Shown piece after piece: positions 5,351 to 64,000 of a stretch of 64,000 nt of DNA (its first letter is position 1; every line of letters starts with the position of its first letter). The position numbers and the translations under genes were made by a program. Below the pieces are notes generated by a model. The model ran no database searches. It saw nothing but the letters and a program-made list of their open reading frames with translations, and was not told the DNA's origin. This DNA is from Corynebacterium simulans (GTDB taxonomy: Bacteria; Actinomycetota; Actinomycetes; Mycobacteriales; Mycobacteriaceae). The stretch is from the NCBI RefSeq assembly GCF_001586215.1, contig NZ_CP014634.1, forward strand, positions 1,488,001 to 1,552,000, written 5' to 3'.

Positions 5351-6564
5351 TAGTTTTCCTCCTTGAGGCGCAGCTGTGGGTTCTGCTCGAGGGTGTGACG
5401 GACATGGTCGATGTCTTTATCGCCGCGGCCAGAAAGGGATACGAGGATGGTGATGTCTTCTTCTTTACGCTTCAACGCGTAGGCCAGAGCGTGGGAAGAT
5501 TCGAGGGCCGGGATGATGCCCTCTTTCTTGCTCAGTAGCTGAAAGGCTTCGAGTGCCTCGGCATCGGTGATGCCGACGTACTTAGCGCGGCCGGTCTTAG
5601 ACAGGTGTGCGTGCTGTGGGCCGACGCCCGGGTAATCCAGGCCGGCGGATATGGAGTAAGACTCCTCTACTTGGCCGTCAGCATTGCGCATCAGATAGGA
5701 GCGCGCACCGTGGAGGATGCCTACCGTTCCGTTGTTGATGGTGGCGCCGTGCTTACCGGAGTCGAGGCCCTCGCCTCCTGGCTCAGCGCCAACTAGCTCG
5801 ACTCCCTCGTCTTCGATGAAATCGGCAAACATGCCGATGGCATTGGAGCCGCCGCCGACACAGGCGACGACGAGGTCTGGCAGCGCGCCAGTCTGTTCGA
5901 TCATCTGTGCCTTGGCCTCTTCAGAGATGACCTTGTGGAACTCGCGCACGATGGTTGGGAATGGGTGCGGGCCGGCGGCAGTACCGAGGAGATAGTGGGA
6001 CTCGTGGAAGGTTGCGGTCCAATCACGCAGTGCTTCGTTAACGGCGTCCTTGAGGGTGCCGGAACCGGTGTCGACTGGGACGACTTTGGCGCCCATGAGT
6101 TCCATGCGGTAGACGTTGGGCTGCTGGCGCTCGACATCCTTGGCTCCCATGTAGACCACGCACTCAAGGTCGAGCAGCGCGCAAGCCAGTGCGGTGGCGG
6201 TGCCATGCTGGCCGGCGCCGGTCTCTGCGATGATGCGGGTCTTGCCCATGCGCTTGGCCAGCAGAGCTTGGCCGATTACTTGGTTCGTCTTGTGTGCACC
6301 ACCGTGCACCAAGTCCTCACGTTTGAGGAAGATGCGGGCCTTGCCGCCTAGCTTGGTTGCCTCAGTCAGCGGAGTCGGGCGGCCGAGGTAATCCTTCAGG
6401 TAGCCGGCGAGATCCTCACGGAAGGAGGGATCGTTCTGGGCATCTACGAAGGCTTGCTCAAGCTGATCGAGAGCTGGGATGAGGGATTCTGGCACGAATT
6501 GCCCGCCGAATTCACCGAAGTAGGCTGGGAGCAAGGTTTCCCTGGTTTCTTGTGTTTCAGTCAT
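5350..6564 (-). CDS. trpB: tryptophan synthase beta chain
   Basis: A 404-residue PLP enzyme joining indole and serine to give tryptophan in the TrpA2B2 complex. The PLP lysine is in GGAHKTNQ (Lys92) and the catalytic glutamate in AETGAGQHG (Glu114); the phosphate-binding [12 protein letters not shown] loop is near residue 228. The ATG at 6562-6564 (MTETQ) is preferred because AGGAAAG lies a few bases upstream; a TTG 36 nt earlier would add a non-family tail. A gap of about 37 nt follows trpCF. Confidence 0.97.
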
Positions 6565-47575: not shown

Positions 47576-47629
47576 ATACCGTTGTTGGTAAGGAAATACT
47601 GAAGCGTCCTGGGTTTAGTTCCGCTTCTT

Positions 47630-48505
47630 TTACGACCCTGTGTTGATGGGCTGGGTGAGATAGTACTCGGTTTCTACTTCCTGTGGGGTGGCGTAGTCCA
47701 ATGCTTCGTGAAGCCGCTTAGTGTTCCACCAATGCACCCACCGCAAGGTGGCCAATTCGACTTCTCCGACCGACGTCCACGGACCTTGGGCATGAATCAG
47801 TTCCGCCTTGTAGAGACCATTGACGGTCTCAGCTAGAGCATTGTCATAAGAATCGCCGACTGTTCCCACACTCGGCCGGATTCCGGATTCCGCGAGAGCG
47901 GTGGAATACTTCAGTGACACGTACTGGCTGCCCCGATCGCTGTGGTGAATCAGCTGGTTTCCATGGATTCGCCCTGCAGTCGTTAACGCATGCTCCAAGG
48001 CCTCCATGGGTAGCGCATCGGTGCGCATCGTTGAGCGTGTAGCAACACCAACAATCTTTCGACTGTAGACATCCACGACAAACGCGGTGTAGGCGAATCC
48101 TGACAGGGTGCGAACGTAAGTAATGTCGGCAACCCACAGCCGGCCTGGTGCTTGTGCACGAAAGTCTCGCTGCACTAGGTCTGGGCGATGATCCGGTGTC
48201 TTCGGGCTGATCGTTGTCACGGGGGTTCGTCCACGTCTGCGGCCGCAAACACCTGCTAGCTTCATCAGACGTGCAGTCTTATCGCGACCAATATGAAAAC
48301 CTTCACGGTTCATCGCGTGCCACATTTTGCGGATACCGTAAACCGAGAAATTCTCCGCATGCACACGCTGTATCTCTGGGATGAGAAGGCTATCGCTTAA
48401 GGCCCTTGCACTGGGAACACGTGTAGTGGCTTTGCGGTAGCCGCGTGAAGTGATGAATCCACGATCTGCTTGTTTGAGGACTCGGCAGATGGCCCCGGGC
48501 CCCAA
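47630..48505 (-). CDS. IS3-family transposase OrfB, copy 1
   Basis: A 291-residue integrase-core protein. The DDE triad is visible in WVADITYVRT, HHSDRGSQY and NALAETVNGLYK; the N-terminal HTH_21 region (SVYGIRKMWHAMNREGFHIG) is present. The frame opens at a TTG. The expected start, an ATG overlapping the orfA stop (MISYIDAYKDQFG), is one base out of frame with it because of the GGGGCCCGGGG run. All three copies share this. Confidence 0.85.
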   Translation of the reverse strand: MGPGAICRVLKQADRGFITSRGYRKATTRVPSARALSDSLLIPEIQRVHAENFSVYGIRKMWHAMNREGFHIGRDKTARLMKLAGVCGRRRGRTPVTTISPKTPDHRPDLVQRDFRAQAPGRLWVADITYVRTLSGFAYTAFVVDVYSRKIVGVATRSTMRTDALPMEALEHALTTAGRIHGNQLIHHSDRGSQYVSLKYSTALAESGIRPSVGTVGDSYDNALAETVNGLYKAELIHAQGPWTSVGEVELATLRWVHWWNTKRLHEALDYATPQEVETEYYLTQPINTGS

Positions 48506-48535
48506 ACTGATCCTTATACGCGTCGATGTAAGAGA

Positions 48536-48856
48536 TCATTTGGTCGTGGGTCGGCCTGGTTCCGCTGCGAAAAAAGCCGAAGCAGTCTTAAGAATCCCGT
48601 TTGCTCGCTTCAGCTCACGGTTTTCGCGGCGCAAACGCTTGAGCTCTTCTTCCATCGTTTCGCCGCCTGAAGCGCCAGAGTCATCACGTACTGAAGCGCT
48701 GTCACGGTACCAAGCCCGCAACGTATGGTGAGACACTCCAAGCAGCTCACCGACCTCCGTGTAGGCACGTTGCAGTGAGCAGGACTCCAGGCGGACCATT
48801 TCGATGATCTGATGGACCGCCTTCTCCTTGAACTCAACGGAATACTTTCTAGGCAT
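48536..48856 (-). CDS. IS3-family transposase OrfA, copy 1
   Basis: A 106-residue DNA-binding protein: HTH (EFKEKAVHQIIEMVRLES, LLGVSHHTLRAWYRD) followed by a leucine-zipper-like coiled coil (MEEELKRLRRENRELKRANG). It binds the IS ends and works with OrfB. Confidence 0.88.
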   Translation of the reverse strand: MPRKYSVEFKEKAVHQIIEMVRLESCSLQRAYTEVGELLGVSHHTLRAWYRDSASVRDDSGASGGETMEEELKRLRRENRELKRANGILKTASAFFAAEPGRPTTK

Positions 48857-48900
48857 AGTTCAATCCTTCCTTAGCTGAGGTAGGAACTAAACCCAGGACG

Positions 48901-50758
48901 CTTCATACCTCCGCGTGCGCGGAGAAGAGCCCGTAGTCGTGGAGGCTATGCACTATGGCCCGGAAATACCTCCGCGTGCGCGGAGAAGAGCGCTACAGCT
49001 TACAGGCTTCACCACCCGTATTGGAAATACCTCCGCGTGCGCGGAGAAGAGACACGGCCCCATCTTCCGAGCGGCGGGCCGTGGGAAATACCTCCGCGTG
49101 CGCGGAGAAGAGAGTCGGCCATGGTGACCCTAACGCTGGTTGTGGGAAATACCTCCGCGTGCGCGGAGAAGAGTTGTCCAATCTATTGGTTCCCCATGCC
49201 ATTTAGGAAATACCTCCGCGTGCGCGGAGAAGAGGCGCCTGGAGTTAAACACCTTGGACCGTAATGGGAAATACCTCCGCGTGCGCGGAGAAGAGCGGCT
49301 CGTGGCCTACGTCTTCGATGATGAGGGGGAAATACCTCCGCGTGCGCGGAGAAGAGAACATCATCAACGGCCTGATTAATGGCATTAAGGAAATACCTCC
49401 GCGTGCGCGGAGAAGAGGGTGCCCGCGTGCTAGGCATGAAGGTGCCGGCGGAAATACCTCCGCGTGCGCGGAGAAGAGTGTTCTTCCGCCAGGCAGAAGA
49501 CAACAAGGGTGGAAATACCTCCGCGTGCGCGGAGAAGAGTGGTACTGGGAGCACATGCCGGGCGGCGAGCCGGAAATACCTCCGCGTGCGCGGAGAAGAG
49601 GTATCCGCCACGGTGCGCGGCTATTCAACCCCGGAAATACCTCCGCGTGCGCGGAGAAGAGAAGCGCGGGGGCCGGTAGTCAGCTTCCTGGTAGGAAATA
49701 CCTCCGCGTGCGCGGAGAAGAGCACGAACAAACATCAAAGGGGTGAAAAAGCCGGGAAATACCTCCGCGTGCGCGGAGAAGAGCTTCGTCGAAAGCTATG
49801 ACCGAGGATTCATAGGAAATACCTCCGCGTGCGCGGAGAAGAGAAACACCAGGCCTATCACCTGATACAAAGATAGGAAATACCTCCGCGTGCGCGGAGA
49901 AGAGCCACGCTGGTTAACCGCCTGACCGTGGATGGTGGAAATACCTCCGCGTGCGCGGAGAAGAGGGTTGCGCGGTGGTGAGCGTGTGGCGCAGCTTGGA
50001 AATACCTCCGCGTGCGCGGAGAAGAGCGTGGGTGTAGGTGGTCTACCTGAAAGGCGGTGGAAATACCTCCGCGTGCGCGGAGAAGAGGAGTGATGGTGTT
50101 ACAGCCGGGCGCATTTGCTGGAAATACCTCCGCGTGCGCGGAGAAGAGGCACACGCCTTACCGCCACCCCTCACACCCATGGAAATACCTCCGCGTGCGC
50201 GGAGAAGAGCACTTCATGATGATGTTCGCGGCGCGAGTCTGGGAAATACCTCCGCGTGCGCGGAGAAGAGATGGTGATAAGTGGCGTGTAGCCCATGGGC
50301 TAGGAAATACCTCCGCGTGCGCGGAGAAGAGGCAGCGATGTGCGCTAGAGCGCGGTGAAGCTTGGAAATACCTCCGCGTGCGCGGAGAAGAGGGTGGGCT
50401 GCCTTAAACGCCTTCGAGTTGAACGGAAATACCTCCGCGTGCGCGGAGAAGAGACGCTTAGGCGTGGTCTGGGTGGACATTCCTGGGAAATACCTCCGCG
50501 TGCGCGGAGAAGAGGCCTTCTTAGCAAAGTGCACCTTCACCAAGCCGGAAATACCTCCGCGTGCGCGGAGAAGAGAGCTCCATGAGGTAGGCGGATTCCG
50601 GTATCTCGGAAATACCTCCGCGTGCGCGGAGAAGAGGCCATGTAGTCGGCTAGGGCTGTGGTGAGCTCGGAAATACCTCCGCGTGCGCGGAGAAGAGCCC
50701 TTCTTGTGGACACGATTCCCGCTCTACCGAGAAATACCTCCGCGTGCGCGGAGAAGAG
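48901..50758 (-). CRISPR. type I-E CRISPR array, 31 repeats and 30 spacers
   Basis: 29-bp repeats recur every 61 bp: 48962, 49023, 49084 and so on to 50730. Spacers are 32 nt except one of 31 nt (49784-49814). In the minus-strand orientation each repeat has the stem CTCCGCG/GCGGAG and an 8-nt 3' handle GTATTTCC, the normal I-E layout, so transcription runs right to left, in the direction of the cas operon. The leftmost repeat (48901) is split by IS copy 1. The rightmost, leader-side repeat (50730-50758) ends in T instead of C. The rest are identical by eye. Confidence 0.97.
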
Positions 50759-50824
50759 TCTTCCTGAACAGCAACTGAAGCGTCCTGGGTTTAGTTCCTA
50801 CCTCAGCTAAGGAAGGATTGAACT

Positions 50825-51145
50825 ATGCCTAGAAAGTATTCCGTTGAGTTCAAGGAGAAGGCGGTCCATCAGATCATCGAAATGGTCCGCCTGGAGTCCT
50901 GCTCACTGCAACGTGCCTACACGGAGGTCGGTGAGCTGCTTGGAGTGTCTCACCATACGTTGCGGGCTTGGTACCGTGACAGCGCTTCAGTACGTGATGA
51001 CTCTGGCGCTTCAGGCGGCGAAACGATGGAAGAAGAGCTCAAGCGTTTGCGCCGCGAAAACCGTGAGCTGAAGCGAGCAAACGGGATTCTTAAGACTGCT
51101 TCGGCTTTTTTCGCAGCGGAACCAGGCCGACCCACGACCAAATGA
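50825..51145 (+). CDS. IS3-family transposase OrfA, copy 2
   Basis: Identical to the OrfA of copy 1: 106 residues with HTH and coiled coil. Its TGA overlaps the ATG of the MISYIDAYK frame. Confidence 0.88.
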   Translation: MPRKYSVEFKEKAVHQIIEMVRLESCSLQRAYTEVGELLGVSHHTLRAWYRDSASVRDDSGASGGETMEEELKRLRRENRELKRANGILKTASAFFAAEPGRPTTK

Positions 51146-51175
51146 TCTCTTACATCGACGCGTATAAGGATCAGT

Positions 51176-52051
51176 TTGGGGCCCGGGGCCATCTGCCGAG
51201 TCCTCAAACAAGCAGATCGTGGATTCATCACTTCACGCGGCTACCGCAAAGCCACTACACGTGTTCCCAGTGCAAGGGCCTTAAGCGATAGCCTTCTCAT
51301 CCCAGAGATACAGCGTGTGCATGCGGAGAATTTCTCGGTTTACGGTATCCGCAAAATGTGGCACGCGATGAACCGTGAAGGTTTTCATATTGGTCGCGAT
51401 AAGACTGCACGTCTGATGAAGCTAGCAGGTGTTTGCGGCCGCAGACGTGGACGAACCCCCGTGACAACGATCAGCCCGAAGACACCGGATCATCGCCCAG
51501 ACCTAGTGCAGCGAGACTTTCGTGCACAAGCACCAGGCCGGCTGTGGGTTGCCGACATTACTTACGTTCGCACCCTGTCAGGATTCGCCTACACCGCGTT
51601 TGTCGTGGATGTCTACAGTCGAAAGATTGTTGGTGTTGCTACACGCTCAACGATGCGCACCGATGCGCTACCCATGGAGGCCTTGGAGCATGCGTTAACG
51701 ACTGCAGGGCGAATCCATGGAAACCAGCTGATTCACCACAGCGATCGGGGCAGCCAGTACGTGTCACTGAAGTATTCCACCGCTCTCGCGGAATCCGGAA
51801 TCCGGCCGAGTGTGGGAACAGTCGGCGATTCTTATGACAATGCTCTAGCTGAGACCGTCAATGGTCTCTACAAGGCGGAACTGATTCATGCCCAAGGTCC
51901 GTGGACGTCGGTCGGAGAAGTCGAATTGGCCACCTTGCGGTGGGTGCATTGGTGGAACACTAAGCGGCTTCACGAAGCATTGGACTACGCCACCCCACAG
52001 GAAGTAGAAACCGAGTACTATCTCACCCAGCCCATCAACACAGGGTCGTAA
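51176..52051 (+). CDS. IS3-family transposase OrfB, copy 2
   Basis: Identical to OrfB of copy 1, with the DDE triad intact. The frame opens at TTG 51176, directly after the out-of-frame MISYIDAYKDQFG segment. It is in the same frame as OrfA but separated from it by the OrfA stop. Confidence 0.85.
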   Translation: MGPGAICRVLKQADRGFITSRGYRKATTRVPSARALSDSLLIPEIQRVHAENFSVYGIRKMWHAMNREGFHIGRDKTARLMKLAGVCGRRRGRTPVTTISPKTPDHRPDLVQRDFRAQAPGRLWVADITYVRTLSGFAYTAFVVDVYSRKIVGVATRSTMRTDALPMEALEHALTTAGRIHGNQLIHHSDRGSQYVSLKYSTALAESGIRPSVGTVGDSYDNALAETVNGLYKAELIHAQGPWTSVGEVELATLRWVHWWNTKRLHEALDYATPQEVETEYYLTQPINTGS

Positions 52052-52149
52052 AAGAAGCGGAACTAAACCCAGGACGCTTCATGTTGCGGTTTGCATGATA
52101 TAAGTCGATTTCATACACCTTTATCCCACGGTAGTGCGCGCATAGATGC

Positions 52150-55749: not shown

Positions 55750-56064
55750 TTAGTTTGTCTCGGTGCGGTTTTGCGTATGTTCTCGCGAAAACGTGCACGC
55801 AAGTAAAAGGCCGTCCATGTCAATGATTGTACGGCGTCGCGGTCCCATAGTGTTGACTGCAAAGCCCTGTTCGCGGGTCCGGTCCTCGTTGATCATGGTT
55901 AGGCTGCCGTCGGCGATGGCATTGGAAAGCCGTCGCCACAGGTTATCGCGGACACGACGGGAAACGTTTCCTACATAAACACCGGTATCTACTTCCGAAA
56001 GGAAACGCGAAAGGTAGCCATGCATGTGGTCCGGGAGGCTGGTGGTTGTGATTACAAGAAACAT
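55750..56064 (-). CDS. cas2: CRISPR-associated endoribonuclease Cas2 (type I-E)
   Basis: A 104-residue Cas2e. It starts MFLVITTTSLPDHMHGYLSR and contains VDTGVYVGNVSRRVRDNLW, both typical of the I-E form. With Cas1 it forms the spacer integration complex. It directly follows cas1 (TGA then ATG). Its stop is 4 bp from IS copy 3, so only a few bases of the natural 3' flank remain. Confidence 0.93.
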   Translation of the reverse strand: MFLVITTTSLPDHMHGYLSRFLSEVDTGVYVGNVSRRVRDNLWRRLSNAIADGSLTMINEDRTREQGFAVNTMGPRRRTIIDMDGLLLACTFSREHTQNRTETN

Positions 56065-56997
56065 TCAGCGCCGTCCATATTGTGTATGCCCGGCGACTTC
56101 ATCGCCGCGCCCAGAGACGAGTCGATCGTCATCACGTGAAGGTAAGTGGGGTGTGAGTACCTCTGTGAGAACTTCCAGCATGTCGACGAGTAAGTTCTTT
56201 CGATGGATCTCTCGGCGTAGTTGCTTCCTTAGCGCTGGTAATGGATCTTCCTCATTGGCACAGGCGAAAGCCAGTGGGATTGAGATTGTGGGCTTGTACA
56301 GATCAGCCAGATCAAAGAGCAATGAACGAGCATTACCTCGATGAATGATGCCCAAGGCAGGATTGACACCTATTGCCGCGCACGCAGAAGCGGCGCATCC
56401 ATAGAGCATGGAGTTCGCTAGGTTGAGTCCCTGATTAACTGGGTCATCGTTAGCAGTATTGCGCCGAAAATTCTTGATCCTGTGTTTCTTCGCCTGGGTT
56501 TGATAAGTCTGTTTCATTACGCGGCCTTCAAGTCCGCGCATGATGGAAATGCTCGGAGCATCAGCAATTTCTTCGATGCCTAGTTGCCGCTGGTAGAGCT
56601 TGATTGCAGCCTTTCGCTGGTGGGCTTCATTAGAGACGAGAGCTGCCTGGGCAATTGCCCAACGCGCCGAGGAAGTTAGTGGGGTTGCGTGAGTATAAGC
56701 CGGCACTCCACCACCGCCAGTGAACATGATGGTCGTTCCTGAACGAGTACATGAGGTAGCAGCGGCTGCAGAAATGGAGGTTCCAGGTCCGAGCATAAGA
56801 ACTGCAAGTCCGCCTACAGGGAGTTGGATGCGTTGCTCTAATTCTGAATTGTCAACAACCGAATAGGCCACTACACCAGTACGGTCCTGGCGGATAGCTG
56901 CACGCTCCACATAAGCAAAGCTGACACGGTCTTCCAAGCGGACTTGGTGGTCTGCTGGAATGGTGGAAAACGTAATGGCGTCTTCGGAGTAAGCCAT
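56065..56997 (-). CDS. cas1: CRISPR-associated integrase Cas1 (type I-E)
   Basis: A 310-residue Cas1e. Family segments are DRVSFAYVERAAIRQDRTGV near residue 24, MRGLEGRVMKQTYQ with the metal-binding Glu, and NSMLYGCAASACAAIGVNPA followed by GIIHRGNARSLLFDLADLYK with the catalytic His and Asp. It integrates prespacers at the leader end of the array. The start overlaps the cas3 stop by one base (TAATG). Confidence 0.95.
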   Translation of the reverse strand: MAYSEDAITFSTIPADHQVRLEDRVSFAYVERAAIRQDRTGVVAYSVVDNSELEQRIQLPVGGLAVLMLGPGTSISAAAATSCTRSGTTIMFTGGGGVPAYTHATPLTSSARWAIAQAALVSNEAHQRKAAIKLYQRQLGIEEIADAPSISIMRGLEGRVMKQTYQTQAKKHRIKNFRRNTANDDPVNQGLNLANSMLYGCAASACAAIGVNPALGIIHRGNARSLLFDLADLYKPTISIPLAFACANEEDPLPALRKQLRREIHRKNLLVDMLEVLTEVLTPHLPSRDDDRLVSGRGDEVAGHTQYGRR

Positions 56998-59624
56998 TAG
57001 GAGTGTGCCTTTCCGTAGATGAGTCCAAGGGCTGGATCGTAGTTGTCGGAGAGATCAACGATTCTGAAATACTGCAGTAGGGAAGTCTCCCACGGGTTCG
57101 AGAGAAAACGCGGATCTTCGGGAGGAAAAGAGCCTTGACGTAGGTTGATACTTGAGCGGAGAATACGTTTCAGATCTTCCTGAGTGGGCTTCGTGAGTTC
57201 TAAATCGATACTGGTTATGGCACCCGGAATTGTGCCAGCGTCATCGAGAACGAGAGCACGTACAGTTTCTCCTTCGACGTAACGTGTACGGAGATCCTCG
57301 AGTGCGGTAGTTCCTTCTGTGAGCTTGGTTAGCTCGCTTAGGCGAACGTCTTCTTTTAGAACGGCTTCCAGGTTGCTTTGAATATTCGACGCTGCCATGT
57401 GCTTCCTGGAATCCTGGGCAAAGGCATCAATGTCTTGGTCATCGTTGATATTTGTGAGAGTAATTGATGTTGTGTTGACAAAGTCTTGACACTCGACCGG
57501 GAATTCAATTCTTCCGTTATGAGAATTCAGCCAGCGTTGCGTGCGGTTCAGTAGAGCCTCCATGTAGGGAAGATTCTCACGGTGCTCGTAATTCTGGTGG
57601 GCAACAATATGCAGATGCATGTGGTCACGCCCAGGAAGTCGGTGCTTGCGTTGTGGGTCTCTTCGGCGCCAGACACGACCGGCCCGTTGGATGAGGGAAG
57701 CGGACGGGCATAGGTCGGTGCTGAGTAGATCAAGGTCAATATCCAATGATGCTTCAATGGCTTGTGTACCTACAACACATATCCCTTCACCGTTTCCATG
57801 TGGACCAATCGTGCGAAGTAGCGTATCGGCAGCAGCTTGGCGATGTCCCGCAGTCATCGCAGCGTGTAGAAGCAGGACGTCTTCGCCTGCCTCATTAAGC
57901 CTGCGGGATATCTCTTGTGCCCAGTCAACTCGGTTGCATATGACCCCGATGCGAGCAATCGGATACTCCGCACGCATGCGTCGAACCCAGTTGACATGTG
58001 CGTCTATCTGAGACGGGTTTGCGATGGTGATGTCGTAAGTCAGCGTGTATGGCGTTGAATCCAACGGAGTGGCTGTATAGGAACTGGAGTTGTGGCTGAG
58101 GATCGAGGGAAAATCAATGTTTGTTTCCAGCGGGTACCCGGTGTAGGTACATGCGAGTGAATTGCACTGTTCTTGCGACAACGTGGCGCTGAGAAGGGTA
58201 ACGCGTGCTCGCACGGTACCTAGCCATTGCATCAATGGTTTGAGCAATTGTGCTTGATAAGGATCTAGCGTATGGACCTCATCAATAATTACATGCGCGT
58301 TTGCCAGCGCCAACAGAATGACATGGGTCCATTTCATCGGAAGTGCTGCTTTAAGCGCTTGGTCCACGGTGCCTACCGTGATAGAGGCCAGCATGCGTTC
58401 CATTCCTGAACGCACGAACTCAGCTGGTACGAGTCCGCCGACGTCTTCCAGTGGATTACTGTCGCGGAAGGTGGTGACGGGGCGGGAGTAGAAATCCTCA
58501 ATGGTGGCCATTCCGTGTGCGAGCGCTGCAGTGTTTTGAGTCGAACTAAAGATTCTCTGTACACGCTTCATCAATGCATTCGAGGTCGCCATCGTGGGTA
58601 GTAGGAACAACATGCGTTCTTTACGTTGCGCATGGCGTAGGATAGCGGCTTCAGTCTTACCGGAACCTGTAGCTGACATGATCGTGAATAGACCATCAGG
58701 ATCGGTCATGGCTTCTCGCTGTGCAGGGCGTGGTTCGTAGCCTTGAAGAATTGCTTCTAGCGCGTCTTCAGCGCTGGGCCAATCGGAATAGATACCAAGT
58801 TGTTCTCGAATACGAGCTAGAGCAGGTTCAGCTTGTGTGAGTATCCACTCCTTCGGCTGTGTCAAGTCTAGTTCGGCTGTTTGGCACCGTGCTTGAGACT
58901 GTTTTACCCATTCGTGGGCTGATACCAGGCGGTCGGCCACAACAGTTAGTCCGCTGATCAGAATCATGGCCGACGTTGGAACTTCATCGGGGAACACTGT
59001 TACTCCGCAGGCTTCGCGAAGCGCGTGGTCTAAAACTTTTTGGGCAGTATTCCACCCATTGCTGGCTAGAGCCGTGTTCCACAGTGCCTCTTTTGTACCT
59101 GTGCGATCGCCGCCAAAGTTTGGAGTATCAAACCTTCCATGATGACCCATAGCTGGGATACAGCGCCAGGCTTGAGTTGCTGAAGCATCCACCGTGAGGC
59201 TGCCAAGGAGGTAGGAAGCTGAAGCCTGCTCATGGCGTCTAAATGCGGCGACATCGTGAAGTCCTCGCAAAGCACGTGGTGGGAGCTTAAAACCCAGCTC
59301 TTCGTTTTCCACAATCCGGTTTCTTACAGAAGACCAGATTTTGCGTTCTTCAGGACGCTGCCTCGCATGAGTAAGTAGTTGGCCTTGAAAGAAGGGGTTC
59401 GCTTTGCCGATGTCGTGCGTGCCAACCAGCCACATTACGATTTCACGTGCGTGTGGCCCCAGCTCTTCGCGAAGGTAGCCCTGCAAGCCTGGCCTCAACC
59501 AGTGATCGAAGAGCTGTCCTGCCATGGAAGCGGCATCACACATATGGGCAAGCAAAGGGTAGCTTTCTTCGAGGCTATGTTGTTTGGCCCACACGGAAGA
59601 AAACGTTGAATGGGTGGCAGGCAT
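56997..59624 (-). CDS. cas3: CRISPR-associated helicase/nuclease Cas3 (type I-E)
   Basis: An 875-residue Cas3 with an N-terminal HD nuclease (His27 region LLAHMCDAA; GTHDIGKANPFFQG, His70-Asp71) and SF2 helicase motifs: SATGSGKTEAAIL, IIDEVHTLDPYQ, LLSATLSQ, VGTQAIEASLDIDLDLL and LIQRAGRVWRR. It degrades DNA marked by Cascade. Its position after cas6e and before cas1, rather than at the front of the operon, is a variant I-E order. It begins 7 nt after the cas6e stop. Confidence 0.96.
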   Translation of the reverse strand: MPATHSTFSSVWAKQHSLEESYPLLAHMCDAASMAGQLFDHWLRPGLQGYLREELGPHAREIVMWLVGTHDIGKANPFFQGQLLTHARQRPEERKIWSSVRNRIVENEELGFKLPPRALRGLHDVAAFRRHEQASASYLLGSLTVDASATQAWRCIPAMGHHGRFDTPNFGGDRTGTKEALWNTALASNGWNTAQKVLDHALREACGVTVFPDEVPTSAMILISGLTVVADRLVSAHEWVKQSQARCQTAELDLTQPKEWILTQAEPALARIREQLGIYSDWPSAEDALEAILQGYEPRPAQREAMTDPDGLFTIMSATGSGKTEAAILRHAQRKERMLFLLPTMATSNALMKRVQRIFSSTQNTAALAHGMATIEDFYSRPVTTFRDSNPLEDVGGLVPAEFVRSGMERMLASITVGTVDQALKAALPMKWTHVILLALANAHVIIDEVHTLDPYQAQLLKPLMQWLGTVRARVTLLSATLSQEQCNSLACTYTGYPLETNIDFPSILSHNSSSYTATPLDSTPYTLTYDITIANPSQIDAHVNWVRRMRAEYPIARIGVICNRVDWAQEISRRLNEAGEDVLLLHAAMTAGHRQAAADTLLRTIGPHGNGEGICVVGTQAIEASLDIDLDLLSTDLCPSASLIQRAGRVWRRRDPQRKHRLPGRDHMHLHIVAHQNYEHRENLPYMEALLNRTQRWLNSHNGRIEFPVECQDFVNTTSITLTNINDDQDIDAFAQDSRKHMAASNIQSNLEAVLKEDVRLSELTKLTEGTTALEDLRTRYVEGETVRALVLDDAGTIPGAITSIDLELTKPTQEDLKRILRSSINLRQGSFPPEDPRFLSNPWETSLLQYFRIVDLSDNYDPALGLIYGKAHS

Positions 59625-59631
59625 GGGGTTC

Positions 59632-60315
59632 CTAACTTAGAGCGCGGATAGATAGTAGACCACAGCCGTAAGCCTTTTCTCGGCCGATTCCAGTAGTCAA
59701 AATGGATACGAGTGCTGCGGTGTCGCGTACTACGGCGATGCCATCCACAGCATCTATTTGTAGCGTCATACGCCCCTTTTCAGCCTTAGGATCTTTGAGT
59801 ACAGCGCGCCGGTGGTTGGTAACCTCCACAGCATCTAAGGCGGGAGATAACTTCTGTGCCAGCCAGGGGCCAAATGTGGTTCGTTCCGTATCCTCATGAT
59901 CCAACGGGATGGGCTTAACTTTGTACGAACGCTTACCGGAAGCATTAGTGAATGTCTCGCGACGAATAGCGTTGAGACTAATGCGAAAACTTACTGAAGT
60001 TCCAGTAGGCGGAGCCTGAAGCTCAACTTGCTTAGTCACAATGTCTGGACAGCTCGAGACAGTGGGCTCTGTAGCAGACTGGATAAGAAAATACGGAGCC
60101 TGTCCTGCCGGGGTCTCTAAACGGAAAAGAATTTCTGCAGCGGAACGTGGATTGGCGTCGTCGAATGCAGGGAAAAGACCCATGACTGCGCGATGACGAA
60201 ATGTTGGGCTATTAAGACTTGCGGGACTCACACGGCGAGCACTATTCGCAGCCACACTTAAGAGAGCGTGTGCAGGTGCTTTGGTTAGATACCGAGTGGT
60301 GATCATATTCTTCAT
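59632..60315 (-). CDS. cas6e: crRNA endonuclease Cas6e
   Basis: A 227-residue Cas6e. The conserved C-terminal glycine-rich loop is TTGIGREKAYGCGLLSI, and the N-terminus is followed by HRAVMGLFPAF, which holds the catalytic-type His. It cuts the repeat hairpin to release crRNAs with an 8-nt handle. A 144-bp gap, unusually large for this operon, separates it from cas5 and holds the crRNA-like unit. Confidence 0.93.
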   Translation of the reverse strand: MKNMITTRYLTKAPAHALLSVAANSARRVSPASLNSPTFRHRAVMGLFPAFDDANPRSAAEILFRLETPAGQAPYFLIQSATEPTVSSCPDIVTKQVELQAPPTGTSVSFRISLNAIRRETFTNASGKRSYKVKPIPLDHEDTERTTFGPWLAQKLSPALDAVEVTNHRRAVLKDPKAEKGRMTLQIDAVDGIAVVRDTAALVSILTTGIGREKAYGCGLLSIRALS

Positions 60316-60348
60316 CTTTCGTCGGGAATACGTTAGATTTGTTCAGAG

Positions 60349-60457
60349 TGGCTCTCCGCTGATGCGGAGGTAGTTCATATTTCATTGAATTGGAACCACC
60401 TTCTCCGCGATACGTGGAGGCAAGCGAAGCGGTAGGTCAACAAGGCCTACCGCTTTT
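60349..60457 (+). ncRNA. crRNA-like mini-unit (two degenerate I-E repeats, 20-nt pseudo-spacer, terminator) inside the cas operon
   Basis: On the plus strand, pseudo-repeat 1 (60349-60377) has stem CTCCGC/GCGGAG and handle GTAGTTCA (6 of 8 with GTATTTCC). After a 20-nt pseudo-spacer (60378-60397), pseudo-repeat 2 (60398-60427) has stem CTCCGCG/CGTGGAG with loop ATA. A 10-bp hairpin AAGCGGTAGG/CCTACCGCTT followed by TT ends at 60457, just before the cas5 stop. The unit is antisense to the cas operon. It resembles CreR/CreA-type crRNA-like regulators. No clear promoter is visible. Confidence 0.6.
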
Positions 60458-60459
60458 GG

Positions 60460-61164
60460 CTACCGTTGAATGGTGGAGTGGCGGTGCAGGCTGAGCTCCT
60501 TGATGCCTTTGAGCCAGTCCGTTCGGGTCGCAACAGCGGGAACACTCATGCTCTCTGGGGACACTCCGGAACCGAGCGATGGTTCAAAGATTCGCACAGT
60601 CGCTTTACTCGACGCGTTAGGAGCAAGGGCGGGGATGAGCGACAGCATCTCTGCTGGCCCAGTTCCCAGATAGAACGGGAACGTTGCTGGAAAAGCTTTT
60701 CGACCTAGATAAACAGAGAAGACAGGGCTGGCAAAAGCCTGATCTATCTCCTCCGTGTGGCCTTCCAGAGTGGCACGTACAATGAATTCAGATTCGGCTA
60801 GGTACGTGCGTCGGCTGATAGAAGTCGCACCCACGGCAGGGGTGAACTTAAGCTGCTTCACAGAGGTAGCCTTCATTTGCTGCATGATTGCAAGGCGCCG
60901 TCGGAAAGTAAATTCATCTTCCCTGTCACCGATGGTGTGAAAATCATCAACATATTTTGGAGTCTTATCCTCCCGCAAGGTGAAATGCACGTCATCGATC
61001 CACGTTGGCCACTGCCCTCTTTTCGCACCTAGACTCGCAGCCAGTAGCCCACGGAGCGCGCTGAGCGTAGGGCGAGGCTCAGTACGGACAAAATTTCCCG
61101 ATACAGCCAGACCCGCCCACGACTGGAGGGGTCCCGCAAGACGGATATAGGTGGAACTAGGCAT
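60460..61164 (-). CDS. cas5: Cascade subunit Cas5e
   Basis: A 234-residue Cas5e that caps the 5' end of crRNA. The N-terminus STYIRLAGPLQSWAGLAVSG and then PRPTLSALRGLLAASLGAKR is characteristic; TSISRRTYLAESEFIV and SVYLGRKAFPATFPFYLG also fit. The ATG at 61162-61164 overlaps cas7 by 8 nt. Confidence 0.94.
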   Translation of the reverse strand: MPSSTYIRLAGPLQSWAGLAVSGNFVRTEPRPTLSALRGLLAASLGAKRGQWPTWIDDVHFTLREDKTPKYVDDFHTIGDREDEFTFRRRLAIMQQMKATSVKQLKFTPAVGATSISRRTYLAESEFIVRATLEGHTEEIDQAFASPVFSVYLGRKAFPATFPFYLGTGPAEMLSLIPALAPNASSKATVRIFEPSLGSGVSPESMSVPAVATRTDWLKGIKELSLHRHSTIQR

Positions 61165-62221
61165 CGAGAATCCACTCCACAACCTGGATAATGAAGTCAT
61201 CGAGAGAGACGGGCGAGAGGTGTCCTAGTTTGCCGTCAAGATCCTTGTGCGTGCCGGACAGTACTTCAACAGGGCCAAAGTTGGCAGGGTCAAAGAAACG
61301 AGCTTGTTGGTACTGTTCTGCCAAAGCTTCAATTGAAGGAACGAGAAAACCACCATCGCCCTGTGGAGTAACTGGCTGTTCAAAGTCATATGCGACGCGG
61401 GCACGCTGTTCTTCTGCGAAGACAACAGCTGGGAGCGTGTAAGGTGCGGTACTGTTTTCTTTACCTCGTGGCTGGCCGTAGACGATAGCACGGAGTAGTT
61501 CGCTGAGGTTTTGCGCAGCGTCTTCAGAGTCAAACCCGGTCCAGCTTTCTTTTAGCTGCACTTTGTCAATCGTTACGGTCCGATAGAAGATGCCGCTGGT
61601 GTATTGGCTAACTCCTAGGAACGTCGCTCCGGAGTCATTGTTACGCTCACGGATGTCATCGACCGTGGAGAAATAATCGGTGTCGATGGTAGCGGCATGG
61701 GTAGTAATTGCCGGAGAAACACTGATTGCGGCTTCGGTGTTGCTGGTTGGGGCGTTGGCGAACATACGGCCAAATGCGGCGATTGCCAGGGATCCCGTCT
61801 TAGTGCCGTTAATGAAGCCTGAGTCCTCAGACTCTTGGTTACCAGCGATCTTTGTTGCTGCTGTGAGGAGTTCCTCACCAGACAACCATGTCGAACGGTC
61901 AGATTCTCCCTCAGAAGCCGTTGCTTTGGTCAACGTGCCAATAATCTTCTTGGCTTCCTTTAGTGCAGCTTTCTGATCCAGTTCTGGGTTTAGCTCTACA
62001 GCTTTTGTGACAATCTCATCTGCCAACTTGCCAGATCGGATGGAAATGTTGCCGGAAGCATCTTCGTAGCGCAGGCGGACGCCGCGCTTGATGGACTGCG
62101 AGGAGTGCAGGGCACGGAGAACTCCACCATGCATCGTGCGCTTTGGAACGCCGGTGTCATCGCGATTGAGGTTGGAGAATGGAATGCTGGACAGGATATT
62201 GATAGTGAGGTGACGCGACAT
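61157..62221 (-). CDS. cas7: Cascade backbone subunit Cas7e (Cse4)
   Basis: A 354-residue Cas7e, six copies of which coat the crRNA. The N-terminus LTINILSSIPFSNLNRDDTG and PKRTMHGGVLRALHSSQSIK, the mid-region GSLAIAAFGRMFANAPTSNT, and DSGATFLGVSQYTSGIFYRT are typical. The strong upstream sequence AAAGGATTTTTCCC precedes its ATG, 27 nt after cse2. Confidence 0.95.
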   Translation of the reverse strand: MSRHLTINILSSIPFSNLNRDDTGVPKRTMHGGVLRALHSSQSIKRGVRLRYEDASGNISIRSGKLADEIVTKAVELNPELDQKAALKEAKKIIGTLTKATASEGESDRSTWLSGEELLTAATKIAGNQESEDSGFINGTKTGSLAIAAFGRMFANAPTSNTEAAISVSPAITTHAATIDTDYFSTVDDIRERNNDSGATFLGVSQYTSGIFYRTVTIDKVQLKESWTGFDSEDAAQNLSELLRAIVYGQPRGKENSTAPYTLPAVVFAEEQRARVAYDFEQPVTPQGDGGFLVPSIEALAEQYQQARFFDPANFGPVEVLSGTHKDLDGKLGHLSPVSLDDFIIQVVEWILDA

Positions 62222-62248: not shown

Positions 62249-62860
62249 TTAGGAAGAAGCGGAGGTGGAAAAACCGGAGTAGTAGTTCTGGAGCACGCTG
62301 CGGCGAACGCGTTGAGAGCTTTCTGTGAAGCCATTGCCCCATCGGAAGAAAATCCGGAAAAGGTCATACACAGGTAGCGGAGGTGTGTCCTTCGTGTTCC
62401 CTGCTAGTGCGGCGATACGACGAATAGTAGTGATAGCTTCATCCACGTTTTGCGTATGTAATGAGACGAGCCTGCTGGCTACAGCATCCGGATGGCGAGG
62501 ATCTAGCGTTTCTTGTTCTGGAGCCAATTTGCGAGAGATGAGGTTGCACCATTGTCCGAGTGATCGGAAACCCGTTTCTTGGGAATCAATGTGCGGTACC
62601 GCATCGAATTCCGCAACCAGAGCTGCGAGGCGAAGCGCTACTGTGCGGGTGGTGGGGCTGGCATCGGCAGGCAAAAGAGGAAAAATGAATGGATAGGCGT
62701 AGTGCTCCGTAGACTGCGAATTACCGCGGCGAAGGAAAGCACGGGTGCGGCGCCATTCACTGCCGGAATGGGAAGTGGGTTTGTCGTGGTAATTACGCAC
62801 AGATTGAGTCAGCCAGGTCAAAAGTGGCTGCCATTCTGGCGTAGATTGTGTGTGATTCAT
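62249..62860 (-). CDS. cse2: Cascade small subunit Cse2 (CasB)
   Basis: A 203-residue helical, basic protein with family features SEWRRTRAFLRRGNS near residue 34, AYPFIFPLL near 56, and FRSLGQWCNLISRKLAPEQE near 103. Two copies stabilise the R-loop in Cascade. It lies 15 nt after cse1. Confidence 0.93.
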   Translation of the reverse strand: MNHTQSTPEWQPLLTWLTQSVRNYHDKPTSHSGSEWRRTRAFLRRGNSQSTEHYAYPFIFPLLPADASPTTRTVALRLAALVAEFDAVPHIDSQETGFRSLGQWCNLISRKLAPEQETLDPRHPDAVASRLVSLHTQNVDEAITTIRRIAALAGNTKDTPPLPVYDLFRIFFRWGNGFTESSQRVRRSVLQNYYSGFSTSASS

Positions 62861-62875: not shown

Positions 62876-64000
62876 TTAGGTGGTGGGGTCGTCGGGGTCT
62901 TCGGCAACAAAATCCTTGATGTGCCGTTTTACCCAGTACTCGACCCCGGCTCGAACGTGGGCAATCCGTGCGGGCTCTTGACCAAAATGTGGTTGTGTGA
63001 CTGAATCAAAAGCGGCCATGGAAGCGGTGTGTAGCCCGGTACGCAGCTCCGGGGAAGCGATGAACTCGCTCTTGGCTGAACGGCACTCTTTGAGCAGCAA
63101 AGAGAAATTGTGGGACATATTGCGCCAAAAGGCTTCGCTTACATCTCCGCGGCTGGATTCCAAAAAATCCAAAACTAGCGGTACTTTGCCGCCTGCACGC
63201 TCGTTAGCGTTTTCTCGGCGGAATGGGCGGATTACGGTGCTATGAAGCTTGTCGATGCAGTTTGCACCAAGCCTGATATCAGCTTGCACACCAGGATTGG
63301 TGTCGTGGGCCCACTCCTCATCACGAGGGAAGAATATGTCGGAAGCGCGAATATTGGGGCTAGAAGCGGTACCCTCCATGCGGTGCCGGATGAACACTAG
63401 GCGTGCTTCAGCTGTTGGAGGAAGTATGTGGGATGAGCTGGCCTTTTCAAACTCCGCGGTTTTATTTTGTGCAGCCCAGTTGATGGCCAAAGCAGTAGCA
63501 TCTTTACCCAGATCTAGACGCTGAAGTTTTAGCTCTTTGCCATTATTGATGTACAGGTAGAACGGGTCTTTTTGATTGCGCAGCGTCCACCAATCTTTTT
63601 GCTGATCTTTGCTGCCCATCTCGGTAAGGAACCATTCAGGCGGTACACCGCCGGTGCGGACACCAACAAGCTCTGATGCTTCCCAGGCTGTAGCAGGGGA
63701 ATTAGAAGTCCACGTGGCCGACCATAGCGGGTGAACTATCCCGTCGTGGCGCGAGTACGCGCAGGTGCGGTCAGCCCATGCGGGAAGGCCTGTGCCCTTG
63801 ACCCATGACTGTGGAATTGCCATGAGCAAGGTTTCTAGTAATGATTGCCCATGCCACAGCACTTCTGTTGCCGAATTCTCAGTACCAACAAAACGCATCG
63901 CCGGGGAACCAGAAACGCATTTGTCACCGCAGTACGCATTGTTGCCTGCTACGGATAGGTGATGATAAGTCACGAGCCACATCACTGCATCTTCTAGAGA
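62876..64000 (-). CDS. cse1: Cascade large subunit Cse1 (CasA), N-terminus outside the window
   Basis: The frame is open to the window edge, so at least 374 residues are visible and the N-terminal part is missing. SLEDAVMWLVTYHHLSVAGN near the edge, LLETLLMAIPQSWVKGTGLP, and WTSNSPATAWEASELVGVRTGGVP (in part) fit Cse1; the C-terminal four-helix bundle follows. Cse1 recognises the PAM and recruits Cas3. The apparent start at 63985 (GTG) is only internal. Confidence 0.92.
   Translation of the reverse strand, partial: SLEDAVMWLVTYHHLSVAGNNAYCGDKCVSGSPAMRFVGTENSATEVLWHGQSLLETLLMAIPQSWVKGTGLPAWADRTCAYSRHDGIVHPLWSATWTSNSPATAWEASELVGVRTGGVPPEWFLTEMGSKDQQKDWWTLRNQKDPFYLYINNGKELKLQRLDLGKDATALAINWAAQNKTAEFEKASSSHILPPTAEARLVFIRHRMEGTASSPNIRASDIFFPRDEEWAHDTNPGVQADIRLGANCIDKLHSTVIRPFRRENANERAGGKVPLVLDFLESSRGDVSEAFWRNMSHNFSLLLKECRSAKSEFIASPELRTGLHTASMAAFDSVTQPHFGQEPARIAHVRAGVEYWVKRHIKDFVAEDPDDPTT

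Follow-up and report, generated by a model that had tools for sequence, protein, structure and literature searches.

In type II-A systems, a long tracrRNA known as tracr-L turns Cas9 on its own promoter. CreR units consist of degenerate repeats and a short pseudo-spacer. They have been described for types I-B, I-E, and V-A, and the accessible parts of these sources present CreR as a crRNA-like RNA with partial complementarity to a cas promoter, generally without a toxin gene (PMC12737573, PMC13131331, PMC12948488). Reviews among these three sources, as far as their available text goes, treat CreR as a host circuit that senses the crRNA load and anti-CRISPR attack. According to the available part of a review, CreA of the CreTA and CrePA modules is crRNA-like and guides Cascade to a promoter. 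On the phage side, RNA anti-CRISPRs (Racrs) are solitary repeat units; the accessible text states that some predicted Racrs may serve other functions and cites repeat-like sequences that mediate Cas-dependent repression (PMC10651486). The available part of a further source, on CRISPR in mobile elements, covers Racrs as well as mini-arrays against rival viruses (PMC11656645). In the accessible portions of the CreR, Racr, and mobile-element CRISPR literature, no description was found of a host CreR copied into a phage; the primary CreR literature, or that on CRISPR-derived regulatory elements, may mention such a copy.

The window considered here, which is the whole analysed stretch of 64,000 nucleotides of Corynebacterium simulans DNA, contains a type I-E cas locus with a crRNA-like unit in its interior, and a second copy of the unit is carried by a resident prophage. 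From the sequence evidence, we conclude with high confidence that the unit would act as a CreR-type autorepressor of cas through Cascade; that its prophage copy would act as an RNA-guided anti-CRISPR is probable, with less confidence. The host unit appears to be a member of the known CreR class; the phage-borne copies would be new, and the sequence evidence for them is good.

The cas genes lie on the minus strand in the order cse1, cse2, cas7, cas5, gap, cas6e, cas3, cas1, and cas2. The cse1 gene (62876–64000, continuing to G000:C1:1552465) is identified by its operon position, its partial protein giving no NCBIfam match. It is followed by cse2 (62249–62860; TIGR02548 at 27.6 bits, just below the cut-off of 28.5), cas7e (61157–62221; TIGR01869), and cas5e (60460–61200; TIGR01868). 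Beyond the gap come cas6e (59632–60315; TIGR01907 at 62.8 bits, cut-off 45.2), which adjoins the unit and is divergent from it, cas3 (56997–59624; TIGR01587 and TIGR01596, both above cut-off), cas1e (56065–56997; TIGR03638), and cas2e (55750–56064; TIGR01873). The CRISPR array, also on the minus strand (48905–50758), has 31 repeats of 29 nt and 30 spacers of 32 nt, one of which is 31 nt long. IS3-family copies flank it: one at 50774–52084, 15 bp from the leader-side repeat, and one at 47598–48908, which cuts the last repeat. The array is separated from cas2, unlike in the related loci L130, L131, and L134. An IS3 transposase shares 97.6% identity with one from a C. striatum plasmid, and one array spacer is 93.8% identical to a stretch of the Corynebacterium phage Stiles. 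A comparison of the window cas region with plasmids gave no near match.

The gap between cas5 and cas6e measures 144 bp (60316–60459). Its plus strand, antisense to cas, holds two degenerate I-E repeats with a 20-nt pseudo-spacer between them and then a terminator-like hairpin. The first repeat (TGGCTCTCCGCTGATGCGGAGGTAGTTCA, 60349–60377) has a 6-bp stem (CTCCGC/GCGGAG) and the 8-nt handle GTAGTTCA, which is identical at 6 of 8 positions to the handle of the array repeat, GTATTTCC. It agrees with the array repeat at 20 of 29 positions, a score that is by itself within chance (elsewhere in the 64 kb, one place also reaches 20 and one reaches 19). The pseudo-spacer, or guide, is TATTTCATTGAATTGGAACC (60378–60397). 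The second repeat (ACCTTCTCCGCGATACGTGGAGGCAAGCG, 60398–60426) folds into a Cas6e-type hairpin, TCTCCGCG..CGTGGAGG, and the 3′ boundary of the small RNA would lie after Cas6e cleavage within it. The terminator-like hairpin has 13 bp and a short T-run (TTTT) and occupies 60426–60457. The plus strand of the unit (126 nt) folds at −56.4 kcal/mol (z = −5.3), and none of 200 shuffled sequences was as stable. All of this bears out, by reading and by folding, the original prediction of two degenerate repeats around a 20-nt pseudo-spacer on the strand opposite to cas with a hairpin behind them, including its statements on the handle and on the gap that the unit occupies.

Other evidence places the unit beyond chance: a second copy of it in the same genome is 85% identical over 67 bp, and a strict pattern of the unit occurs 13 times in 9 of 242 genomes of the genus, against no occurrence for a reversed-pattern control. 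By reading, eight of the 13 are units and five are array irregularities or chance; both of the exactly two occurrences in the C. simulans genome are units. The terminator-like hairpin is absent from the output of a consensus terminator scan, a search for a consensus promoter for the unit found none, and an Rfam search gave no match at gathering thresholds.

The original prediction took the unit for a crRNA-like cas autorepressor and proposed a search of the region upstream of cse1 beyond position 64000, and the expected match is there. The guide TATTTCATTGAATTGGAA agrees with TATTTAACTGAATTGGAA of the cas-sense strand at 16 of 18 positions, and AAC precedes the site. The target lies at G000:C1:1552549–1552566 on the minus strand (it would be 64549–64566 of the window), 84 bp upstream of the cse1 ATG. 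In the whole 2.74-Mb genome, the 18-nt guide has three sites with up to three mismatches: the unit itself, the cas promoter (two mismatches, AAC), and the prophage unit (two mismatches). The reversed pattern, used as a control on this genome, gave zero sites. At the promoter, the mismatches fall at guide position 6, a base flipped out by type I-E Cascade in its R-loop structure, and at position 8, which is a seed mismatch. A U in the guide would face a G at position 8, and a U–G wobble is possible. The seed core together with the PAM (ACTATTTNANTGA) occurs twice in the genome, at the promoter target and at C1:1367174; this second site (G000:C1:1367174–1367186) has an AC PAM and one mismatch in 11, at position 8, and lies in a stretch without an ORF of at least 120 aa. 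In a named genome collection, in which the C. simulans genome may be absent, the guide pattern matched only a Paucisalibacillus contig, which was taken as chance.

The PAM of the system was read from ten real spacer–target matches, to the prophage and to the contigs L040, L084, and L090; one spacer match to the prophage with 11 mismatches (sp18) was dropped as chance. GAC or AAC stands beside eight of the ten targets, the exceptions being GGT and GAT, so the promoter site has the natural PAM of the system.

These features suggest the following scheme. Cas6e would cleave the transcript of the unit, and the resulting short crRNA-like RNA, with the 8-nt handle and the 20-nt guide, would load Cascade. 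Cascade would then bind the cse1 promoter region next to the AAC PAM with limited complementarity, pairing at guide positions 1–5, 7, and 9–18 with a possible U–G wobble at position 8. Its presence there would repress cas transcription without productive cleavage by Cas3.

The original prediction also offered a CreTA-like addiction module, in which the RNA would serve as the antitoxin by repressing a neighbouring toxin gene. CreTA modules do occur in CRISPR-Cas loci, according to the available text of reviews among the sources on CreR (PMC12737573, PMC13131331, PMC12948488), and CreA resembles the RNA predicted here in that it is crRNA-like and directs Cascade to a promoter. Here, however, the target is the cas promoter and no toxin gene accompanies the unit: beyond the unit itself, the only genomic sites within three mismatches are this promoter and the prophage unit, and the unit takes up the 144-bp gap. 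A very small toxin would still be compatible with these observations. The guides of related loci that have a plausible target also match sites by cas genes. A toxin gene with a promoter targeted by the guide was not found, and the addiction module, as an explanation of this unit, is largely refuted and very improbable.

Relatives in the genus carry equivalent units. The Cas6e family PF08798 is found in 100 of 242 genomes, and 80 of the 111 listed PF08798 places were taken for comparison. Degenerate repeat pairs outside arrays are common in these loci. A repeat-pair search found 51, of which nine were dropped because of their spacing or N; the window unit, missed by the automatic finder owing to a different loop length in its second repeat, was added by hand, so that 43 candidates were tested. 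For 17 of them, the window included, the guide has a site in its own locus that is matched by none of the 80 other loci; A stands at position −2 of the PAM in all 17, and the PAM is NAC in 14. Eight further candidates have a site with A at −2 beside an ORF of cas size that is also reached by one to 11 of the 80 other loci. For the remaining 18 pairs, no site was credible as a target; they include array fragments or chance pairs as well as pairs that look real and lack a target within 20 kb (e.g., L153, L157, L170, L183, and L203).

A set of 26 units with a plausible target was picked by hand: the 17, the eight of weaker contrast, and the CreR of genome G171, which the repeat search had missed and which was found by reading (the row for its locus, L128, in the table of candidates is a mini-array). 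Each target is found at the start of a large ORF or no more than about 170 bp upstream of that start; most of these ORFs were taken for cse1 or cas3. Over guide positions 1–13, mismatches occur at position 6 (10 times), 12 (17 times), 9 (twice), and 8 (once, in the window) and nowhere else. Position 12, like position 6, is a base that Cascade flips out. Past position 13 the match fades, with 8, 8, and 12 mismatches at positions 14, 15, and 16. The scoring favoured matches at positions 1–5, 7, and 8 over the rest and weighted positions 9–13 alike; therefore, the contrast of position 12 with positions 9–11 and 13 is no artefact. The recurrent mismatches at 6 and 12 can serve as a signature in sequence searches for such units elsewhere. 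The PAM of the L132 target is AAC.

A de novo search near cas6e used the handle and did without the repeat stem. It took 11 loci, the loci with a divergent Cas6e (L139–L147) being left out. Full pairing at ten positions (1–5 and 7–11) beside NAC was present in nine of the 11 loci, and in random windows it was present in 4 of 742, from two places. Under a looser rule (9/10 pairing and any A at −2), nine of 136 random windows gave a match. Near cas6e of L137 and L138, this search found no unit. When the guides of ten loci were compared with the targets of all ten, each guide paired with its own promoter at 10 of 10 positions (9 in the window) and with the others at 8 or fewer. The comparison with related Corynebacterium I-E loci that had been proposed therefore found equivalent units whose guides differ among species and each fit their own cas promoter, and this covariation of guides and promoters makes the regulatory reading very likely.

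The same result weighs on the last alternative of the original prediction, a functionless relic of an old array. Degenerate repeats and a gap that is otherwise unexplained would suit a relic. Against it, the repeat-to-repeat distance is 49–50 rather than 61 in many units of the genus, and the guide–promoter pairing is kept while the guides change between species, which a relic leaves unexplained. Given this pairing in the relatives, we reject the relic as hardly credible.

An inversion may explain why the unit lies inside the operon. In relatives such as L128, the unit separates two divergent blocks, cse1–cas5 and cas6e–cas3–cas1–cas2, and lies 72–81 bp from its target. In the window, all cas genes point in the same direction, and the unit is 4.17 kb from its target. 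The cse1–cas5 block therefore seems to have been inverted, so that the unit stayed beside cas6e and the target is now distant. Two minor variants may be added here. Near cas6e of L136 (genome G026), the first repeat has diverged to CCCC..GGGG, and the handle GTAGTTCC is kept; the guide–promoter pairing is kept as well, with mismatches at 6 and 12 within the first 14 positions. Genome G240, which has no Cas6e match, carries a CreR-like unit (G240:C7:176286–176337) with a guide nearly identical to that of a unit about 7 kb from cas6e in G093, and this unit may have been left over after the loss of cas.

The unit thus has the features of CreR: a cas locus of the matching I-E type, two repeat-like hairpins around a short pseudo-spacer, a partial match to a cas promoter next to a PAM, and no toxin gene beside it. 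It differs from CreR in the long pairing in the window (16/18), in the recurrent mismatches at 6 and 12, and in the near copies of the host guide that phages carry. The likeness to tracr-L lies in a guide RNA that turns an effector on its own promoter; here, the effector would be the type I-E Cascade and the RNA comes from a crRNA-type unit.

The prophage copy (L002/L017) goes beyond the original prediction. It lies among phage genes for an endolysin, a minor tail protein, replication initiation, a terminase, a portal, and a major head protein. Read by eye, it consists of a repeat, a handle, the guide TATTTCATTGACTTGGAG, a repeat, and a terminator-like hairpin. Within 18 nt, the prophage and host guides differ only at positions 12 and 18. 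The strict pattern occurs in nine viral contigs, of which only L040 and L084 carry units, of the prophage type; the other seven look like chance. Over 82 bp, the pairwise identities of these two and the prophage unit are 82/82, 81/82, and 81/82. In an annotated phage collection, the prophage unit had no match, and the L017 prophage had only one, a 231-bp endolysin piece that is 77% identical to Rhodococcus phage REQ3. Among 235 spacers from nine related loci, the window included, only those of the window match phages of the L040/L084 type at an E value of 0.01 or better (with 3 mismatches to L084 and 6 to L040), which suggests that these phages infect the same host group as the window strain.

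The phage unit would direct the Cascade of the host to repress cas further. We consider this recruitment of Cascade by the phage, which would make the unit an RNA-guided anti-CRISPR, probable. A competing explanation is that the unit is a Racr-like sponge, an idle RNA that ties up Cas6e and Cascade and whose guide is irrelevant. Racrs and the phage unit are both phage-borne mimics of CRISPR repeats, an ordinary non-targeting crRNA likewise lowered interference in the available part of the Racr report (PMC10651486), and the phage unit has the features that an RNA loading Cascade needs. A solitary repeat is not what the phages carry, however: there is a pair of repeats with a complete handle and a guide that is conserved and matches the cas promoter, with transcriptional repression as the predicted outcome. 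The 20-nt guide is identical in all three phages, whereas neighbouring segments of 200–300 bp are 81–89% alike, and within 18 nt, no position expected to pair distinguishes it from the host CreR guide. Furthermore, each of four phage guide sequences fits a single one of ten host promoters at 9/10, with no more than 7/10 at any of the other nine. The sponge is therefore unlikely. The phage unit resembles viral mini-arrays in being a short viral array with host-type repeats, as these are presented in the accessible text of PMC11656645; it differs from them in that its 20-nt guide fits the cas promoter of the host.

If phages carry the CreR RNA of their host, the circuit has a weak point, because a phage can add more of the host's own repressor RNA. 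The only escape for the host would then be a joint change of guide and promoter, and this could be why guides and promoters are specific to each species and still matched.

A lysogen that is targeted by its own spacers should not survive under fully active immunity. Seven of the 30 window spacers match the resident prophage (G000:C1:2073756–2097764); three do so perfectly, two of them with GAC or AAC, and in a fourth, position 18 is the sole mismatch. This tolerated self-targeting could be explained, on the sequence, by the prophage unit; the IS3 copy 15 bp from the leader-side end may also silence the array. The second case comes from G171 (L128, L297, L298), in which a prophage (integrase, portal, tape measure, and endolysin) sits between cas2 and the array, and 12 of the 30 spacers read match it, two perfectly. 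A mini-array with three guides lies about 3 kb from the endolysin gene, beside or in the prophage. One of its guides equals the G171 CreR guide at positions 1–6 and 8–11 and fits the G171 promoter at 9/10; the other two have no cas-promoter match. The G171 cas3 reads as two ORFs. The two cases agree, each with another potential reason for tolerance (IS3 and the split cas3, respectively), and self-targeting lysogens are suggestive only as a sign of CRISPR inhibition by a phage unit.

The displaced array leader of the window strain and the split cas3 of G171 would also fit the view that the host CreR was captured by chance as the prophage unit, or that this unit has another prophage role such as guarding against rival phages, with self-targeting tolerated for other causes. 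Against this view stand the high conservation of the unit among the three phages, the G171 mini-array near a different prophage, one guide of which is similar to the CreR guide of that host, and, for the 18-nt guide, the lack of a further site in the genome, prophage included. We regard chance capture or such a role as quite improbable.

A second group of phage contigs (L089, L093, and L095) carries a unit with a different guide. The promoter of G251 is the best of the ten for this guide (9/10); over 17 nt, other places score equal to or above it. None of 15 G251 spacers matched the available parts of the three contigs. A search for the L095 unit in the 242 genomes of the genus gave nothing beyond two matches of about 30 bases, and L095 had no near match in the annotated phage collection. 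Directly behind the unit lies a Cas6e homologue, at L095:13622–14206 on the plus strand (PF08798, 2.5e-18) and at L089:221–814 on the minus strand (PF08798, 6.8e-19); in L093, interruptions occur in the frames that follow the unit. The L095 protein is 36–41% identical to three host Cas6e proteins. Its glycine-rich loop is kept, a stretch after the conserved PAH motif is missing, and the His of this motif, presumably the catalytic His of Cas6e, is replaced in the alignment. It is possibly a decoy Cas6e. Taking both groups together, we lean towards the view that Corynebacterium phages carry mimics of host CreR whose guides stay unchanged at the pairing positions, are matched to the cas promoter of the host species, and would silence cas transcription through the Cascade of the host during lysogeny or infection, with one phage group adding a Cas6e homologue.

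Other viral contigs deserve a brief mention. The pattern of two CCCC-type repeats around a short spacer matches 31 of them (L228–L258), and by eye, clean-looking units are seen in, for example, L229, L230, L232, L242, L243, L244, L248, L250, and L256. In L090, a phage-like contig matched by a window spacer with 3 mismatches, a solitary copy of the window array repeat lies at about 5649–5671 on the minus strand; by eye, it adjoins a tRNA-like 3′ end and is a candidate solitary repeat unit.
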